Below, one piece after another: positions 1,502 to 11,074 of a stretch of 36,387 bases of DNA. The translations under genes were made by a program, and so were the position numbers. The notes below the pieces were generated by a model, which did no database searches, was not told the DNA's origin, and saw only the letters and a program-made list of their open reading frames with translations. Each line of letters opens with the position of its first letter. Position 1 is the stretch's first letter. This DNA is from Candidatus Methanovirga aequatorialis (GTDB lineage Archaea > Methanobacteriota > Methanobacteria > Methanobacteriales > Methanobacteriaceae): the NCBI GenBank assembly GCA_031282205.1, contig JAITEE010000039.1:1-36387 (forward strand), given 5' to 3'.

Positions 1502-4093
1502 ATGAAAATACTAAATAAATTTATGAAATTTAAGAGTAGTAAATATTTTTTAGGTAAGAGAAACCCACCCATATTATTATATCTCTATCCCATTATTCTT
1601 TTAAGTGTATTATTATTGGTTGCTGCACCTAACACGCTTGTTAACGACACAGGTGATAGTCAAATATACACTGATAATAGTAGTAGTGTGGTGTTTAATT
1701 GCACTGCCACACCAATTAGACAAGATTTTAATAATAATGGTCTGGTTCAAATGAATATAACCTCATCAGAGACAGTAAATAAAACATTCAAAATTATCAT
1801 GGACGATAAACAATACACAACCATGTTAAATGGTAACAATAGCAATAATATAACTTCTGATGTATTCACAACGGAGAATAGTATTAATAAAACCATAACT
1901 GTACTGGATCCAACCAACAATAATACTATTAACTTGAATGTGAATTTTGAAAATATTAAACTCATAAACTACGATATAACACCAAACACTAAAACCATTA
2001 CTATAACTCAAGATACTCCTAATGGAATCCAAGAAGCTATTAACAACTCTAATGATGGAGATACAATAATATTAAAAAATGGAATCTACAAACAATGTAA
2101 TATTACTGTTAATAAGGGCGTGACTATAAAAGCAGAAACAAAAAGCGGAGCAATAATAGACGCAGAAGGACAAGGACGAATATTCAATGTAACAAACACC
2201 AATGCAGTCTTAGATGGGTTAAACATAACAAACGGAGAAGCACCTAATATTAGTGTTGGTGGTGGTGATGGTGGTGGTGTATACCTTAATGGTGGTAGTG
2301 TGACAAATTCTACTATCACCAACTGCAATAGTACTCATGGTGGTGGTATATACATTAATAATGGTAATGTGACAAATTCTACTATCACCAACTGCACTAA
2401 TCGTGGTGGTGATGGTGGTGGTGTATACCTTAATGGTGGTAGTGTGACAAATTCTACTATCACCAACTGCACTGGTGGTGGTATAAACCTTAATAATGGT
2501 AATGTGACGAATTCTACTATCACCAACTGCACTAGTGATCGTTATGGTGGTGGTATAAACCTTAATAATGGTGGTGTGACGAATTCTACTATCACCAACT
2601 GCCATAATGGTGGTGTATACATTAATAATGATGGTAGTGTGACGAATTCTACTATCACCAACTGCACTGGTTATGGTTGTGGTGGTGTATACATTAATAA
2701 TGATGGTAGTGTGACGAATTCTACTATCACCAACTGCAATGCTTATTATGGTTGGAGTGGTGCGAGTGGTGGTATACACCTTAATAATGATGGTAATGTG
2801 ACGAATTCTACTATCACCAACTGCACTAGTGATCGTTATGGTGGTGGTATACACCTTAATAATGATGGTAATGTGACGAATTCTACTATCACCAACTGCG
2901 CTAGTTATAATCGTGGTGGTGGTGTATATCTTAATGGTGGTGGTAGTTTGATGAATTCTACTATCACTAACTGCACTAGTAGTAATGAGGGTGATGATGA
3001 TGCATGGGGTGGTGGTGTATGCCTTGATGGGAGTGGTAATGTGACGGGTTGTACTATCACCAACTGCACTAGTGATCATTGTGGTGGTATATTCCTTAAT
3101 GGTAGTGGTAGTGTGAGTTATTGTCGTATTGTTGATAATAATGCACTTGATGGAAAAGAAGCTTATATTAATAATAGTGGCAGTGCTGACTTTAATTGGT
3201 GGGGTGCTAATAATATCACTCAGCTCATAAATGGTAGTGTTGTGCCTAGTAGTTATTATCAACTCCTATTAACAGCTGGAAATGTTTCAACGGTTGATGA
3301 GGTTAAAGATTATTTTGGAATGGTACCAATATCTTTGGGTTGTGGTTTGGTTCTTAATGGGACCGATGATTCTACTGGTAGTAATAATTTGCCTGATTTC
3401 ACTGGTAACACTACATTAAGTAATGTTTCGAGTCATGATCTACTATTATTTAGAGATGTTGTGAGGAGTTTTACTCCAGGTAAATCCAATAGTTTTAATG
3501 TTCCTAATGGATGGAATGACACTCTAAACAGTCAGGGTAGGTATAATTATACTGGTGTTGTTGACAATCAAATTTTAGATATTAACATTATTGATAAAGA
3601 TCTTAAGAGTGTGAATCTTGTTATTTCTAAGACTTGTAATGTTACTAATGTTGTTGTTGGTGATGTTATTGGTTACACAATCAAGGTAGTGAATAATGGT
3701 ATGGTGTCAGTTGCTAATGTTACTGTGAACGATACAATGAGTAATGATCTTAAATATATTAATAGTAATAGTAACAATGGAGATTATAATAGTAATTCTG
3801 GTTTATGGAGTATTCCTATTTTGGGTGTTGGTGAAATTGCTAATTTAAATATGACTTGTAGAGTTGTGGGTGTTGGTGATGTGATTAATAGTGCTCATCT
3901 GTTTTTAGGTGATAATAATTATATTAATGTTGGGGTTAATGATTCGAGTGTTATGATTAATAGTAAATCAGTTCTACATCCTGGTGATGATTCTAATTTG
4001 TTTTGGAGTGGTTTGCCTTTGACTGGTTTGCCTTTAGTTGTTTTGATTCTTTTTGTTTGTGCTTTGTTCGGTTATTTCCTTAGGAGAAGATAG
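1502..4093 (+). CDS. Large membrane-anchored adhesin-like protein with tandem beta-helix coils and a DUF11-like domain
   Basis: This 863-residue surface protein has a signal/anchor helix at about residues 24-42 and an Asn/Thr-rich region to about 160. An NGIQEAINNSNDGDTIIL segment near 170 opens the beta-helix, a typical pectate-lyase-like entry. Some 11 coils of 20-31 residues follow, each centred on (V)TNSTITNC and a GG(G)-V/I-Y/N/H-L/I-N turn. Ten coils have NSTITNC and one has CTITNC. A C-terminal DUF11/CARDB-like domain lies at about 715-810 (NLVISKTCNVTNVVVGDVIG), then a hydrophobic helix ending in RRR that anchors the protein. A Cys in every coil and many N-x-S/T sequons suggest a Cys ladder and heavy N-glycosylation. 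The ribosome binding site GAGG is at 1489-1492. The antisense frame is open because of GGT/ACC repetition and is not a gene. Confidence 0.88.
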   Translation: MKILNKFMKFKSSKYFLGKRNPPILLYLYPIILLSVLLLVAAPNTLVNDTGDSQIYTDNSSSVVFNCTATPIRQDFNNNGLVQMNITSSETVNKTFKIIMDDKQYTTMLNGNNSNNITSDVFTTENSINKTITVLDPTNNNTINLNVNFENIKLINYDITPNTKTITITQDTPNGIQEAINNSNDGDTIILKNGIYKQCNITVNKGVTIKAETKSGAIIDAEGQGRIFNVTNTNAVLDGLNITNGEAPNISVGGGDGGGVYLNGGSVTNSTITNCNSTHGGGIYINNGNVTNSTITNCTNRGGDGGGVYLNGGSVTNSTITNCTGGGINLNNGNVTNSTITNCTSDRYGGGINLNNGGVTNSTITNCHNGGVYINNDGSVTNSTITNCTGYGCGGVYINNDGSVTNSTITNCNAYYGWSGASGGIHLNNDGNVTNSTITNCTSDRYGGGIHLNNDGNVTNSTITNCASYNRGGGVYLNGGGSLMNSTITNCTSSNEGDDDAWGGGVCLDGSGNVTGCTITNCTSDHCGGIFLNGSGSVSYCRIVDNNALDGKEAYINNSGSADFNWWGANNITQLINGSVVPSSYYQLLLTAGNVSTVDEVKDYFGMVPISLGCGLVLNGTDDSTGSNNLPDFTGNTTLSNVSSHDLLLFRDVVRSFTPGKSNSFNVPNGWNDTLNSQGRYNYTGVVDNQILDINIIDKDLKSVNLVISKTCNVTNVVVGDVIGYTIKVVNNGMVSVANVTVNDTMSNDLKYINSNSNNGDYNSNSGLWSIPILGVGEIANLNMTCRVVGVGDVINSAHLFLGDNNYINVGVNDSSVMINSKSVLHPGDDSNLFWSGLPLTGLPLVVLILFVCALFGYFLRRR
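2287..3085 (+). repeat. In-frame imperfect DNA repeats encoding the beta-helix coils
   Basis: A core unit, AATTCTACTATCACCAACTGC, or one-base variants of it, recurs about ten times at spacings that are multiples of three (about 60-93 bp), separated by GGT-rich linkers. Several copies differ from each other only in the linker length. Near-identity at DNA level in a protein of this type points to recent duplication and suggests that coil number can change by slippage or recombination. Confidence 0.85.
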
Positions 4094-5404: not shown

Positions 5405-5728
5405 TTATTCTACCATGACTAACTTTCCTGTTTTTGGATCTTTATAAACCTTTCCTACTTCCACCATGCCTTGACCTGAACCGTTTGACGTGTCTGGCAT
5501 CTGATCTAATTCTTTTCCTTGATCAATTTGAGAAACTGATTTCATTTGATCTTTTTTTTGTTCTTGAGTCATATTCCCATTGAAAGCTATTGATTGCATA
5601 TTCCATGACATTACTAAAAAAATTAATAAACCTACCGAAATAACTAACATTACATCAACTAAGTTTGTTGTTCCTGCCATCGGATCTTCTTCTATTCTTT
5701 GAGAACGTTTTTTTCTACGTTTAACCAT
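5405..5728 (-). CDS. DUF2149 protein, ExbD-like single-pass membrane protein
   Basis: This 107-residue protein is predicted to be the partner of the ExbB-like protein encoded just upstream. A basic N-terminus (KRRKKRSQR) is followed by EEDPMAGTTNLVDVMLVISV and a hydrophobic stretch to about residue 40, then a polar region ending in VGKVYKDPKTGKLVMVE. The segment is characteristic of the archaeal DUF2149/COG4744 family. The LVDVMLV stretch has the same layout as the ExbD/TolR/MotB helix with its proton-carrying Asp, and Asp25 would be the candidate here. The ATG at 5728 is preferred over an upstream ATG that would add 13 residues (MYHHVNFLQCRDS) outside the family. The gene is 285 bases from exbB in the same direction. 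Regulation is unknown. The ExbD relation is inferred from the motif. Confidence 0.8.
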   Translation of the reverse strand: MVKRRKKRSQRIEEDPMAGTTNLVDVMLVISVGLLIFLVMSWNMQSIAFNGNMTQEQKKDQMKSVSQIDQGKELDQMPDTSNGSGQGMVEVGKVYKDPKTGKLVMVE

Positions 5729-6013
5729 ACTATCTCGACATTGTAAAAAATTCACATGATGGTACATAATTTTTTATGTGTATTTTTTGAGTGCTACTGA
5801 ATTAAAATCGTTAAATATATAATGTTGTAAAAGACAAATTATTTGTAGGTGTGGGTTTAATTTTGATCATATTAATATTCATTGACATACACCCATTTAA
5901 AGATTATTAACCAATTAAATTACTATTTAAACTAAAATAAAAACACAATGCAAAAATCCACAAACCCCTTTAGTCTATCATGGATCTTTTACAGTATCTT
6001 TTTTTTATTATTT

Positions 6014-6673
6014 TCATATTTTTTTATTGCTTTTTAGAAAATCTAATACTGCGTCAGATAAAACATCTAAATTAGATAAATACTCATCATACCATCTTTT
6101 TCTAATTTTAGAGACAAAGTAACCTACAGCTCCTGAAGCTACACCTACAACTGTTGTATCAAATGCAATAATAATTGATTGTGCGAGGGTATTAACATCC
6201 CCATTACCAAGTGCTGCTAATCCTGGACCCATTGGAATTAAGGTCCCCATTAATCCTAATGTAGGCCCAATACGAGTCATAATATCTGTTTTCTCAAGAA
6301 CTTTATCTATTGAATTTTCTTCATTTTCAATTAATTTACGAGCTAAAGCTTCACTAGATTCTTTCGATAAATCGTTTGCAGAAACTAACTGAGTTAAATC
6401 ATTTTTTTGCATATTAGAAATAAAAGAAGCAGATATGATATCCTTAACATACTTTTCATTATCTGCCAATGAAATATCATGAATTAATTTTTCTATATGA
6501 GAAACAGGTATTTTTTTTCTATTTATATATTCATATATCAACTCTCCAATAACCATAACCGCATAAAGTATAAAAATTAATAATAAAATTATTACAGGAA
6601 TTAATAAATTCTGAGAAATTAAATTTAAAGAACCATTTAAAAATTCACTGCCAGGAATAATACTTGAAACCAT
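6014..6673 (-). CDS. MotA/TolQ/ExbB-type proton channel protein
   Basis: This 219-residue membrane protein has one N-terminal helix (about residues 23-43), a cytoplasmic region of about 85 residues, and two C-terminal helices. The IGPTLGLMGTLIPMGPGLAAL segment (about 136-156) and IIIAFDTTVVGVASGAVGYF (about 168-187) match the two pore helices of ExbB/TolQ, including the conserved TT pair. In bacteria such proteins form a pentamer around ExbD and convert proton flow into mechanical work on the cell envelope. Here the likely partner is the DUF2149 protein downstream. The gene follows a beta-helix surface-protein gene by 33 bases with a GGAG ribosome binding site, so the three genes probably form one transcription unit. 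The load driven by this motor in a wall without an outer membrane is unknown. Confidence 0.87.
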   Translation of the reverse strand: MVSSIIPGSEFLNGSLNLISQNLLIPVIILLLIFILYAVMVIGELIYEYINRKKIPVSHIEKLIHDISLADNEKYVKDIISASFISNMQKNDLTQLVSANDLSKESSEALARKLIENEENSIDKVLEKTDIMTRIGPTLGLMGTLIPMGPGLAALGNGDVNTLAQSIIIAFDTTVVGVASGAVGYFVSKIRKRWYDEYLSNLDVLSDAVLDFLKSNKKI

Positions 6674-6706
6674 AAAAAAACTCCTATTTATTAAAATAAT
6701 AAAAAA

Positions 6707-8149
6707 TCATAATCTACTTTTATGCCCCATATATCCTAAAGCAAATAAACTCATTATTAAGAATATTAAAGTTAATACCATTGATAAAGGAGAATCGTTG
6801 CCAGAATTAGGAGAGTTAGTTATTTCATGAACTTTCCCTTGCTCCCCTGAATCTGCTTTTCCTTGCTCCCCTGAATCTGAAGCATCAGACGCCCCATCTA
6901 CATTGCTATGCGAACCTGACATTGATAATGATTCTGGTGATGATGGATCAGTTCCTGGCGTAGGATCAGTTCCTGGCGTAGGATCAGGATTAGGTGTAGG
7001 ACCAAATTCAGGACCACCCAATGTAAATCTTCCAATTAAATTATTATTATTTTGTAAATTAGTTAATGTTGTATTGTTAAATTTAGCACCTGTTGCATTA
7101 TCAACAATTGCTGCTCGATCACCTGAAGCCTTAAAAGTATTATTCATAAATCTATCAACAACCTTATCAAACCCAGAGCCTTTAACTGCATAATAGTAAA
7201 TCGGTTGACTAGGATCATCTAAAACTTTAGAACCTTTATCAGAAACTGAGATTACATTATTCTCCACTTTAAAAATATTCGTTAAAACATTATTAATACC
7301 AATAGCTTCATAAATATGACTTTCTGCAATTGCGAGATAATCATCAAGATCATGAATACGATTATTAGTAATAATAGCATTATCACATCTACCAACCATA
7401 TTAATACCTATTGAAGCACCACTAATATCATTACCATTGATAACTGAATTACGAGCATCTAATTTAACACCCCAGCAAGTATTAGAAGGTGAACCAACAA
7501 TGGTATTAGTGTTAATATTATAATTTGATCCTCGTGCATCCACTACATTTCCTCCTTGATGAGTTTTATTACCAGAAGAGATATAATTACTAATTACATC
7601 AATGTTTTTATTATCATCATGCATATAAAGACAAGTACTTGCTCCAGTTTTCTTAAAAGTATTAGATTCCATAGTTATAAAAGAAGAATCACTCACCTCT
7701 ACTGCATATCCAGTAAAAGCACCTTTAAAATCAGTGATACGAGAAACAATGTTGTTTTTTAATGAAATATGATCAGTGCCAGTTATATAAATGAGACCAT
7801 GTTCATTAATCCCTGTAGAAGTTAATCTTATCCCAGACAAACTTGATCCTTGACTTCCACCCACAAATTCAAATCTTCCTTCAATAATTTGATTATTTGG
7901 AGCGTTACTTGTGATTATCAATCGTTTATTGATTATAAACACTTTAGGATTATCAGGAGTTCCATGTATATCACCAATTTTAAGGGTGTCTCCATCATTA
8001 ATACCTGAAGTTGGTTTAATATTTCCATTATCATCAAAATAATTTGAATAATTTGAATCATCAATTACATGCACAGCTCCACTAACAGAACTCATACATA
8101 AAATCATACAAAAAATAGTTAATAACCCTATCGACTTTTTAAATCTCAT
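6707..8149 (-). CDS. Secreted beta-helix surface protein with Pro-rich stalk and C-terminal membrane anchor
   Basis: The protein has 480 residues. A signal peptide (residues 1-25, ending SVSGA) is followed by a conserved block VHVIDDSNYSNYFDDNGNIK and NDGDTLKIGDIHG. A right-handed beta-helix covers about 70-370 with a strong QGGNVVDARGSNYNINTNTI, GSPSNTCWGVKLD signature at about 197-232. Next come a PTPNPDPTPGTDPTPGTDP stalk, a tandem DSGEQGK repeat, and a C-terminal helix (LSMVLTLIFLIMSLFALGYM) with a short basic tail. It is a paralogue of the protein at 9986-11074, which lacks the stalk and anchor. The ribosome binding site GAGGTGA lies just before ATG 8149. It sits 33 bases upstream of the exbB-like gene, which suggests that it is the surface partner of that motor. 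Confidence 0.85.
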   Translation of the reverse strand: MRFKKSIGLLTIFCMILCMSSVSGAVHVIDDSNYSNYFDDNGNIKPTSGINDGDTLKIGDIHGTPDNPKVFIINKRLIITSNAPNNQIIEGRFEFVGGSQGSSLSGIRLTSTGINEHGLIYITGTDHISLKNNIVSRITDFKGAFTGYAVEVSDSSFITMESNTFKKTGASTCLYMHDDNKNIDVISNYISSGNKTHQGGNVVDARGSNYNINTNTIVGSPSNTCWGVKLDARNSVINGNDISGASIGINMVGRCDNAIITNNRIHDLDDYLAIAESHIYEAIGINNVLTNIFKVENNVISVSDKGSKVLDDPSQPIYYYAVKGSGFDKVVDRFMNNTFKASGDRAAIVDNATGAKFNNTTLTNLQNNNNLIGRFTLGGPEFGPTPNPDPTPGTDPTPGTDPSSPESLSMSGSHSNVDGASDASDSGEQGKADSGEQGKVHEITNSPNSGNDSPLSMVLTLIFLIMSLFALGYMGHKSRL

Positions 8150-8366
8150 CTTACTTCACCTCTTCATTATTTCGACTAAAAGCATTTAAATTTAATTATT
8201 TTTTATAAAAATTCTCTAAATTAAATTTAAATAGATTATATTGGATATTTTATAATTAACAAACTTTACCAAAATCATTATAATATAAAATAGAAAAAAT
8301 AAAAGAAATATAAATTTTTAAAACTTGTACCTCATTGGAAACGTCTGCTGGGCAACAATACACAAA

Positions 8367-9938
8367 CTAATTAACATTAAAAATATCTGTTGGTCTATTA
8401 TTCCTAAAATTTCCATTAGTAGCATTATCTATGTTTAGAATTCCATGATCATGATAAATTGCCCCACCTTTATCTGTTGCCGTATTAGAACTCAATATAG
8501 AATTAATTAATGTTAAATTTGCATAATAGCTATTAATCGCACCACCATTATGTGCTTGATTCATGCTCATATTACATTTATTAATAGAAATATTATTGGC
8601 ATTCATAATGTTGATTCCACCACCAACATTAGCTTTATTGTCTTCAAATTTACTATTGGTCACGTTCACATTCTTTGGATAAACACTTTGAGTATTGAAA
8701 GCAGGAGGTGCTATACAAATTGCTCCACCATAGTCCGTTGCAACGTTATTAATAAACTCAGAATCCATTATTTTTAATTCCTCATTATTTGATCTAAATG
8801 GTTGGGTTTTTATAGCTCCACCTTCACCAGCACAATTATTAATAAACGAACATTTAATAACCTCTAATTTACCATTATTACAAATTGCTCCAGAATTACT
8901 ACCAGAACTATATCCACTGGTAACCCTGTTATTAATAAACTTTGAATTTAAAACAACAGCACTACCATCAACATCAATAGCACCACCAGAGTGCGGTGCA
9001 TAATTTTCATTAAAGAGTGAATTATTGACTGTAAGTTTTGCATTTCCTCCTGCATTAGTTATTACACCACCACTGTAACCATCCTCAGATAATCCATTTC
9101 TTGTAAAATTAGAATTATCAATATTCAAATTACCCTCTTCATTAGTTATGGCTCCAGAATAACCAAATCCACTACCTCCTGCACTATTATTTATAAATGA
9201 AGATGATTTTATATTAACATTAGATGAACCACCCTGAAATATAGCTCCAGCCTGTGAATCAGCATGATTATTACTAAAATTAGAATATTCAACAAACAAA
9301 TTAGTTCGATCAGCCATATATACAGCACCACCAATTCTATAATTACCATTAACTTCACCATCATTTACATTATGATCAAAAGAACTACGAATTATAGTCA
9401 AATTAGATTTTCTTGCACTGTATATTGTTCCACCATAAACGTCTCCATCACATTCTGCATGATTATCAATGAATTCTGAATCATTAAGACTAAGATCACC
9501 ATAGTTAGAAATACATCCGCCACAAGCATAGTAACCATTAGGGTCTGTTACACTGCAATTATATAAGTGACATTTATTCAGTGACAGAACTCCTTTATTA
9601 AGTATTCCACCGCCTTCTTCTAAGTCTTTACCATTTTTTATTGTTAAACGACATATGGTAACTTTAACACCTTCACCTACATGGAATACTCGATTGTATC
9701 CTTCTGCATCAATGATCGCATCATTACCATTAATATTAATATTCTTGGTGATGCTAATATCACGACTTCCATCACCTTTATACAAATTTAAATTTTTTAA
9801 ATTGATTGTTGTCCCATTTGGTGCATCATCAATTAATTCTTGTATTGTTTTTACTTTTGACTCATTTTGTGGTAATGCACAAAGAGTAGAAGATAAAAAA
9901 ACAATCAATATTATTATTAAACTCATTTTTTTCTTCAT
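8367..9938 (-). CDS. Secreted adhesin-like beta-helix protein without membrane anchor
   Basis: This 523-residue protein has a signal peptide (1-20), then VKTIQELIDDAPNGTTINLK, the usual entry of pectate-lyase-like beta-helices. Some 15 irregular coils carry GGAI/GGGI turns and F-x-N-N motifs (for example FINNSAGGSGFGYSGAI, FTRNGLSEDGYSGGVI) to the end. No C-terminal hydrophobic segment is present, so it is probably secreted or held by other surface proteins. The ribosome binding site TGAGGT precedes ATG 9938. It lies between the two paralogous proteins at 6707 and 9986 with gaps of 217 and 47 bases. Its C-terminus resembles the partial protein at 1-519. The ligand is unknown. Confidence 0.85.
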   Translation of the reverse strand: MKKKMSLIIILIVFLSSTLCALPQNESKVKTIQELIDDAPNGTTINLKNLNLYKGDGSRDISITKNININGNDAIIDAEGYNRVFHVGEGVKVTICRLTIKNGKDLEEGGGILNKGVLSLNKCHLYNCSVTDPNGYYACGGCISNYGDLSLNDSEFIDNHAECDGDVYGGTIYSARKSNLTIIRSSFDHNVNDGEVNGNYRIGGAVYMADRTNLFVEYSNFSNNHADSQAGAIFQGGSSNVNIKSSSFINNSAGGSGFGYSGAITNEEGNLNIDNSNFTRNGLSEDGYSGGVITNAGGNAKLTVNNSLFNENYAPHSGGAIDVDGSAVVLNSKFINNRVTSGYSSGSNSGAICNNGKLEVIKCSFINNCAGEGGAIKTQPFRSNNEELKIMDSEFINNVATDYGGAICIAPPAFNTQSVYPKNVNVTNSKFEDNKANVGGGINIMNANNISINKCNMSMNQAHNGGAINSYYANLTLINSILSSNTATDKGGAIYHDHGILNIDNATNGNFRNNRPTDIFNVN

Positions 9939-9985
9939 ATTTAAACCTCACTTTTATTAATATCAATGAAATTTAATCATTAAAC

Positions 9986-11074
9986 CTACCTACAGAATAT
10001 AGGACCTTTAAGTTTACTATTTCCTATGGTGTTACATTTTTTAAACACATTTATATTTGTATTATTATATGTTTCCTCATCAAAAACCCAAGAATCAGTA
10101 CTTTCCATGAAGATATTATTCATTTCATATACTGTTTCAATATTTTGTATGTTTGGACCATAGGTTGATTTAAAAGCAAGATATTTGACTGGATGGCCAG
10201 AGAAAATATTTGTACTATTTTTATTGACGGTTATAGTATTGTTAAATATATATTTAAGATTACCAAAAATTCCTATAGCCCAAAAATTATCCGCACCATG
10301 ATCAACCGCTAAAGTAGCATCAAAATCATGAATATAATTGCTAAAAACCTTAGTATCATCACTTGCCATAATTCCAACTTGAGCGTTACTAATGTCATTA
10401 TTTTCAATGACTGAATGATATCCATCAAAATTAATTCCCCAACATATATTAGATGGAGAACCAACAACTTTATTACCACTAATATTAGCATTATAAGAAT
10501 GATAGACAGTTAATACGTTTCCTCCTTGATCCGTCATATTTCCAGAATAAAAAGTATTATTAATTATATTAACATTAGCAGTTCCAGAATAAAAACCTAT
10601 AAGACAACATGTGGTTGGTGCAGATCCTTTAAATGTATTATTTGTTAATCTTAAATTAGAACATCCATTTGCCTCAAATGGTCTAGCATCTGCAACAACA
10701 GTATTATTACTTAATGAAATATCATCACAGTCGTTGACACGAACAGCACCTGTTAAATTTAGTCCAGATAAAGTTGATCCTTTACTTTCTCCACTAAAAA
10801 AGAAATTACAGTTTGTAAATTTGCTACTTGCATTATAACTTGTGATAAATAGCGTGATATTATTATTATTAAAATTTTTATCATGCATATCCATAAGTTT
10901 TAATGTGTCTCCACTTTTAAAAGGTGAATTTGCTAAGAGATCTCCATTTGCATTAAAATATTGTGAATAATTATTATCACCAATTATGTAAACAGACCCT
11001 CCACTAACAGAACCTAAATACATCGTTGTCATTAAAGAGCTTAAAACTAACATTAATCCTAACTTTTTAATCAT
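9986..11074 (-). CDS. Secreted beta-helix surface protein, anchor-less paralogue of 6707-8149
   Basis: This 362-residue protein has a signal peptide (1-25, ending SVSGG), then VYIIGDNNYSQYFNANGDLL and KSGDTLKLMDMHD, a block shared with the protein at 6707-8149. The beta-helix carries the same QGGNVLTVYHSYNANISGNK and GSPSNICWGINFD signature. It stops at KLKGPIFCR with no Pro-rich stalk or membrane helix, whereas its paralogue has both. Many N-x-S/T sites suggest glycosylation. A ribosome binding site, GAGGGGAT, precedes ATG 11074. It is the first gene of the minus-strand surface/ExbB/DUF2149 set. It probably interacts with, or competes with, its anchored paralogue, but the function is unknown. 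Confidence 0.82.
   Translation of the reverse strand: MIKKLGLMLVLSSLMTTMYLGSVSGGSVYIIGDNNYSQYFNANGDLLANSPFKSGDTLKLMDMHDKNFNNNNITLFITSYNASSKFTNCNFFFSGESKGSTLSGLNLTGAVRVNDCDDISLSNNTVVADARPFEANGCSNLRLTNNTFKGSAPTTCCLIGFYSGTANVNIINNTFYSGNMTDQGGNVLTVYHSYNANISGNKVVGSPSNICWGINFDGYHSVIENNDISNAQVGIMASDDTKVFSNYIHDFDATLAVDHGADNFWAIGIFGNLKYIFNNTITVNKNSTNIFSGHPVKYLAFKSTYGPNIQNIETVYEMNNIFMESTDSWVFDEETYNNTNINVFKKCNTIGNSKLKGPIFCR

Follow-up and report, generated by a model that had tools for sequence, protein, structure and literature searches.

What might a motor of the ExbB kind drive in an archaeon whose order is pseudomurein-walled? The question is raised by a stretch of DNA from Candidatus Methanovirga aequatorialis (the window), which is one whole contig of 36387 bp in a 1.98-Mb genome of 215 contigs, 85.5% complete. 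On its minus strand, genes for exported proteins run into a gene for an ExbB-like channel subunit and a gene for a DUF2149 protein, and the exported protein nearest to this pair, hereafter the client, ends in a C-terminal tag. We posit that this surface protein probably acts as its own TonB and that ExbB-DUF2149 would pull or turn it through the tag. A coupling between motor and client appears well supported by comparative genomics, and the new element suggested by our analysis is the tag itself, a portable C-terminal segment that may link diverse surface proteins to the ExbB-DUF2149 motor. The features that carry this argument are as follows, in amino acids (aa) and with transmembrane (TM) helices where predicted:

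6014..6673, minus strand: ExbB/TolQ/MotA-family channel subunit, HmuU-like, 219 aa, matching the PF01618 profile
5405..5728, minus strand: DUF2149 protein of the HmuV family (PF09919), 107 aa, single TM helix, proposed ExbD/TolR-like stator subunit
5654..5656, minus strand: codon of Asp25 of DUF2149, the proposed proton carrier, invariant in 39 aligned DUF2149 proteins
6707..8149, minus strand: proposed client, a beta-helix-like surface protein of 480 aa with signal sequence, proline-rich (Pro-rich) stalk, tag and C-terminal TM helix
6710..6844, minus strand: C-terminal proposed coupling tag of the client, in which a linker joins the juxtamembrane strand GKVHEIT to a TM helix with GY at its end
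6815..6838, minus strand: tag core GKVHEITN, a signal ahead of the helix that is supported by a shuffling test
6731..6787, minus strand: TM helix at the C-terminus of the client, containing the conserved GY, read from the sequence

The motor-like pair and its known relatives

An original prediction, made without database searches, had named the two genes as ExbB-like and DUF2149, and both identities were borne out by profile matches well above the cut-offs (42 bits against PF01618, curated cut-off 22.9; 78.8 bits against PF09919, cut-off 27.1), PF09919 being the sole family matched by the DUF2149 protein. The window ExbB aligns with MotA, its best match among solved structures, over TM2-TM3. 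In this alignment GLMGTLIP and AFDTTVVG are paired with GIIGTVM and AFIATLYG of MotA, with conserved threonines of TM2 and TM3 along the predicted proton path, and the GTLIP and AF.TT motifs are highly conserved among 78 homologues. The DUF2149 protein has a short cytoplasmic N-terminus, a single TM helix at aa 23-41 (LVDVMLVISVGLLIFLVMS) and only about 65 residues outside the membrane. Its start is most likely MVKRRKKRSQ (5728), at the same Met as in the protein of the nearest named relative, Candidatus Methanovirga australis (contig L153, also L063; DUF2149 90% identical). A start at 5767, which would lengthen the protein, is less likely, and with the start at MVKRR the numbering of Asp25 is correct. 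This residue lies at the start of the single helix, placed as in ExbD-type partners, as the original prediction had it. From these motifs, the ExbB-DUF2149 pair looks like a proton-driven motor.

The earlier view that no TonB-type explanation applies is upheld by the genome, in which no match to ExbD was found, and neither TonB nor an outer-membrane receptor occurs among the window genes examined. A search of the PDB returned no relatives of DUF2149 among solved structures. A canonical ExbB-ExbD pair, separate from the one treated here and with an ExbB of about 282 aa, is present in most Methanobacteriota (G107:C4, G047:C1 and others; L275-L304).

What the original prediction overlooked is that the pair is a known module, namely HmuU-HmuV of the haem operon of Bacteroidota, and that it is present in most Methanobacteriota. 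DUF2149 was found in 135 of 151 genomes of this phylum, and a search for archaeal exbB-DUF2149 pairs and their neighbours found the two genes adjacent in almost every one of about 80 loci. DUF2162 usually lies upstream of ExbB (58/78 loci), and a large exported protein (CobN, FmdE or a beta-helix protein) is often encoded upstream in motor loci, CobN often standing beside the pair. The order CobN-DUF2162-ExbB-DUF2149 is that of hmuSTUV in the Bacteroidota haem operon (PMC10434189), where HmuS takes iron out of haem (PMC12583661) and HmuV was stated by its authors to have no homology to any known family (PMC13227078). How archaea use homologues of HmuS/CobN was called unclear in the 2025 HmuS paper (PMC12583661). 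The bacterial loci of the module that we found adjoin TonB-dependent receptors. The Trichlorobacter plasmid pGLOV01 carries the DUF2149 motor and also a full ExbB-ExbD-TonB set, and the DUF2149 motor is therefore not simply the TonB motor.

Several further loci of the module were recorded. In the gene run FmdE-CbiM-DUF2162-ExbB-DUF2149 (L048, L049, L101), a tagged exported FmdE-like protein is encoded together with CbiM and the motor, and this shared run suggests motor-assisted uptake of cobalt or nickel. Bacterial CobN-ExbB-DUF2149 modules lie among hydrogenase-maturation genes or beside NikR (L270, Runella pRUNSL01; L268, Azospirillum), pointing to nickel and not to haem. Contigs with methanogen-type DUF2149 that are filed under Bacillales and Clostridia assemblies (L183, L224) are probably misbinned archaeal contigs.

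Form and distribution of the C-terminal tag

The tag is laid out as a short motif (KAYEVSK, for example) that is joined by a linker to a TM helix, at whose end stand GY and basic residues; in the window it reads GKVHEIT...ALGYMGHK. The motif shows a strand-like alternation of hydrophobic and polar residues. Unrelated proteins encoded beside ExbB-DUF2149 have this tag in common, namely CobN, FmdE, DUF11 proteins and the beta-helix families c28 and c43, together with some members of families c5 and c4. Because the client shares it with these motor-adjacent proteins, the tie between motor and client is stronger than the original prediction could see, and its proposal of an energised surface system is partly supported: the observation was confirmed and the interpretation was right in its core, a motor-like pair being tied to the anchored protein by the tag.

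Outside the phylum, CobN beside the motor bears the tag both in archaea of other phyla (VEGYEMTKEN...GFRRR) and in bacteria, as in Trichlorobacter (VEGFEMKE...GFGFRR). Inspection by eye suggests weaker forms in Runella, Azospirillum, Pseudoalteromonas and Bacteroides. A cobalamin-type CobN that has no such motor bears no tag. In family f3 of the Methanobacteriota (1.6-1.8 Mb genomes, probably Methanothermobacter), 7-13 tagged CobN-/FmdE-like proteins accompany a single DUF2149 (L256, L257, L260, L261; G143-G150).

The tag can be recognised across protein families. A profile built from CobN tags only recovered the tags of FmdE (8/8) and DUF11 proteins (3/3) and also the window protein, at E 2.8e-4 in a set of 1082 proteins, and in the same test a profile of all tags minus those of the window's family matched the window tag at 3.6e-7. 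In a whole-genome search with a profile lacking the window's family, the client was the best match (E 7.9e-6), and its counterpart came first in the sister genome as well (5.2e-4). These two tags were the only matches covering the motif in the genome-wide searches, and the client was the only tag-bearing protein found in the window's genome. The tag scores 27.9 bits, and after shuffling of the stretch ahead of the helix the mean was 13.4 bits (maximum 19.1, n=200), so that the helix alone is not the source of the match.

A tripartite tail of motif, TM helix and basic end resembles known sorting or anchoring signals of the CTERM/LPXTG kind, and if the tag were one of these, the motor would do something else nearby. 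Weak NCBIfam matches are in line with such a signal (LPXTG_anchor in 6 of 28 members, best 0.0023; PGF_CTERM in 1 member, 0.02), but no convincing family match was obtained for the tails and none at all for the window tag. No entry of Pfam or NCBIfam describes the tag as a domain of its own, and a single NCBIfam model, for CobN, picks up 12 of the 28 scanned tails. Further points against a sorting signal are that the motif stands about 10-20 residues ahead of the helix, that it is missing from other surface proteins with a C-terminal anchor at these loci, that its presence tracks DUF2149, and that CobN beside the motor bears it in bacteria and archaea alike. We therefore consider a sorting signal improbable and retain the reading of the tag as a coupling device.

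Across the Methanobacteriota, the tag was found at E<=1e-5 in 113 of the 135 genomes with DUF2149 and in 1 of the 16 genomes without it, which are spread over seven genera (Fisher 7e-10, a value that overstates the case because the genomes are related and not independent). Among archaeal genomes outside the phylum that lack DUF2149, 1 of about 228 gave a tag match at 1e-4; tag positives outside the phylum were mostly profile seeds and were not counted as independent. Distances between tags track those between DUF2149 proteins (rho 0.57; 0.48 across different client families; Mantel 0/2000), which is mild support only, since shared ancestry explains part of it.

Besides the kinship of the genomes, several findings weigh against a motor that works through the tag. 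At the same threshold, 22 of the 135 genomes with DUF2149 lack the tag; only some of these cases are due to divergent tags, judged by eye (ASEIEE in c5, KIEIDDE in c4). A profile comparison of DUF2149 with ExbD (PF02472; hhalign) was not significant, with the Asp in register, and since an unrelated single-TM control family outscored ExbD, homology between the two is not claimed. Four of the six genomes of the genus Methanovirga, which are incomplete assemblies, lack motor and tag together. This joint absence is as expected of one functional unit, and it also makes the system dispensable. Other clients may have been missed in the window's genome, given its 85.5% completeness.

The proposed client and its neighbours in Methanovirga

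As originally described, three genes for exported proteins (362, 523 and 480 aa) are followed on the minus strand by ExbB, 33 bases after the last of them, and then by DUF2149. The same five genes stand in the same order in Ca. Methanovirga australis, so that the neighbourhood is conserved and more than a chance arrangement. The remaining features of this gene run are the following:

6935..7003, minus strand: Pro-rich stalk of the client, GPTPNPDPTPGTDPTPGTDPSSP, as seen in the sequence
8367..9938, minus strand: secreted anchor-less protein with beta-helix repeats of the Chlamydia-PMP type, 523 aa (PF02415, 47.4 bits)
9986..11074, minus strand: secreted anchor-less paralogue of the client, 362 aa, 38% identical to it
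5729..6013, minus strand: spacer of 285 nt that separates ExbB from DUF2149 and exceeds that of Ca. Methanovirga australis by about 240 nt

Signal sequences and TM predictions agree with the proposed set of an anchored protein with a Pro-rich stalk, an anchor-less paralogue and a third secreted protein. In the client, the Pro-rich stretch begins at aa 383 and the C-terminal TM helix spans aa 455-473. The paralogue has a signal sequence and stops before the stalk, tag and TM helix. Support for the original view that all three are beta-helix proteins differs from one to the next: the assignment is solid for the 523-aa protein, weak for the client (NosD 21.2 bits, E 2.2e-4, below the cut-off of 23.6) and dependent on paralogy to the client for the 362-aa protein. 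A PDB search found no relatives of the client family among solved structures. The 523-aa protein keeps the same place in the sister species and is a possible partner. Untagged secreted neighbours stand beside clients at several other loci, too.

Up to ExbB, the gaps in the run are 47, 217 and 33 bases. The original description needs correction for DUF2149, which is not closely spaced here and follows ExbB after 285 bases, versus 46 in Ca. Methanovirga australis. The additional stretch of the spacer is AT-rich and absent from the latter species, and no copy of the spacer was found among the loci fetched. The spacer contains a TATA-like TTATATATT, which we infer may act as a promoter.

The six genomes of the genus yielded neither CobN nor DUF2162, and for lack of CobN an Hmu function that depends on it was rejected for Methanovirga. 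As the own genome also has no ExbD match, neither Ton nor Hmu explains the pair, and the motor would therefore serve the surface beta-helix protein. Between the two Methanovirga genomes with the system, the motor genes are 89.7-91.3% identical and constrained, with a ratio of nonsynonymous to synonymous substitution rates (dN/dS) of 0.14-0.18. The client (59% identity, dN/dS 0.54) and its paralogue (51%, 0.61) diverge faster, the core of the client's tag being kept. The exchange of clients is not peculiar to this genus. Of 24 loci with CobN or FmdE, 22 contain DUF2162, and 16 of the 24 loci whose clients are beta-helix or DUF11 proteins are without it (p 6e-5, ignoring kinship); the swap to a surface client with loss of the permease-like DUF2162 is thus recurrent.

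These data bear on two other explanations. According to the first, which concerns the purpose of the system and is compatible with coupling through the tag, the motor powers Hmu-like uptake, with a metal or tetrapyrrole as the substrate, and the beta-helix protein binds this substrate or hands it on in the manner of NosD instead of being an adhesin. Relatives of the motor are indeed paired with CobN, FmdE and CbiM, those in bacteria adjoin TonB-dependent receptors, NikR or hyp genes, and the client itself has its weak match to NosD. This match is under the cut-off, however, the genus lacks CobN and the DUF2162 permease, DUF2162 is missing from most surface-protein loci, and the fast divergence of the client ectodomain is adhesin-like rather than that of a metal carrier. 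We regard Hmu-like uptake, the chief rival on purpose, as rather unlikely. The second explanation holds that the pair is a decaying remnant of a CobN/DUF2162 module with beta-helix genes as chance neighbours. It could account for the loss of CobN, DUF2162, canonical ExbD and the copies of four sister genomes, and for the enlarged ExbB-DUF2149 spacer. A remnant is nevertheless very improbable, for purifying selection acts on both motor genes (dN/dS 0.14 and 0.18), the neighbouring client bears the motor tag, and other genera hold three further client families in which beta-helix/DUF11 clients recur without DUF2162.

Elsewhere in the window, a beta-helix/DUF11 surface protein of 863 aa (1502-4093, plus strand) has the C-terminal end SGLPLTGLPLVVLILFVCALFGYFLRRR, an LPxTG-like signal in an archaeon. 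Its counterpart in the sister species (L063, 9565-12282) lacks such a signal.

Proposed mechanism and comparison with known systems

In the mechanism that we propose, ExbB and DUF2149 would together make up a cell-membrane motor that is driven by protons like ExbBD, TolQR and MotAB, and protons passing at Asp25 of DUF2149 and the threonines of ExbB would move the DUF2149 subunits. No TonB would be used; the client (6707-8149) would supply its own C-terminal coupling device. The client is proposed as its own TonB because the tag has both elements of TonB, a strand-like alternation and a helix with a conserved motif. The D-box of TonB is a beta-strand beside the membrane that is captured by the ExbD dimer (PMC10907165), and the TonB helix touches ExbB via its SHLS motif (PMC12215075). 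In the client, it is the strand-like GKVHEIT motif outside the membrane that DUF2149 would take hold of with its extracellular part, and the TM helix ending in GY would dock on ExbB. The Pro-rich stalk would then transmit the motion to the beta-helix, which would lie within the pseudomurein wall or beyond it, and an adhesin would perhaps be extended, retracted or released, or a bound ligand handed on. Physical coupling, force and proton path are what we infer. Members of Methanovirga are reported to reside within flagellates in the gut of lower termites and to possess few adhesin-like proteins (PMC13135261). We speculate that the purpose is most likely to move or release an adhesin-like beta-helix across the pseudomurein wall, toward the host flagellate or a hydrogen-producing partner.

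In a wider version of this proposal, for which we see about even chances, ExbB-DUF2149 would be a general TonB-free motor of methanogens, and a C-terminal tag of about 45 residues would make any exported protein its client. Such a motor would drive CobN-type chelatases, metal-binding FmdE proteins and adhesin-like beta-helix proteins, often with many clients per motor, and Methanovirga would be reduced to one motor and one adhesin. If true, mechanically energised surface proteins exist in single-membrane archaea. Ton and Tol motors are understood as devices to reach the outer membrane, a view that would change with an archaeal motor that works in a single-membrane cell and is connected straight to surface proteins by a portable tag. 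The proposal would also give a function to DUF2149 and probably DUF2162, both families without one, and would explain why HmuS, the haem de-chelatase of iron harvesting in the gut, has an ExbB in its operon and a C-terminal helix.

Among known systems, the MotAB flagellar stator shares with the window the Asp-bearing partner and, in MotA, the closest solved structure to its ExbB. It differs by the peptidoglycan-binding domain of MotB and the flagellar rotor, which the window system lacks. In NosDFY, a beta-helix protein is moved by an energised membrane machine, an ABC transporter. The motor of the window is not an ABC transporter, and the NosD match of its client is below the cut-off.

The Ton and Tol systems (TonB-ExbB-ExbD, TolA-TolQ-TolR) are similar in their ExbB-family subunit, in the small single-TM partner with an Asp at the helix start, and in having a client whose single TM helix is accompanied by a short strand next to the membrane, for which the SHLS helix (PMC12215075) and the D-box (PMC10907165) may be compared. 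The window system, however, has no TonB/TolA and no outer membrane, its DUF2149 is no detectable homologue of ExbD, the client helix is C-terminal and thus of reversed topology, and the tag is spread over many unrelated proteins. As far as the available parts of two sources describe them, adhesin-like proteins of Methanobrevibacter and Methanosphaera, also Methanobacteriales, are exported, membrane-anchored right-handed beta-helix proteins like the client, but with mainly N-terminal anchors, and these parts describe neither a motor link nor a C-terminal tag for them (PMC11532034, PMC13135261).

The known relative is the Hmu system of Bacteroidota, which comprises the CobN-like de-chelatase HmuS, the DUF2162-like HmuT, the ExbB HmuU and the DUF2149 protein HmuV (PMC12583661, PMC13227078, PMC10434189). 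CobN, DUF2162, HmuY, a TonB-dependent receptor and an outer membrane are all absent from the window system, and its proposed client is a beta-helix surface protein. The ExbB-DUF2149 pair and its order are the same, and CobN of the HmuS type has a signal region and a C-terminal TM helix after a tag-like strand, like the client of the window.

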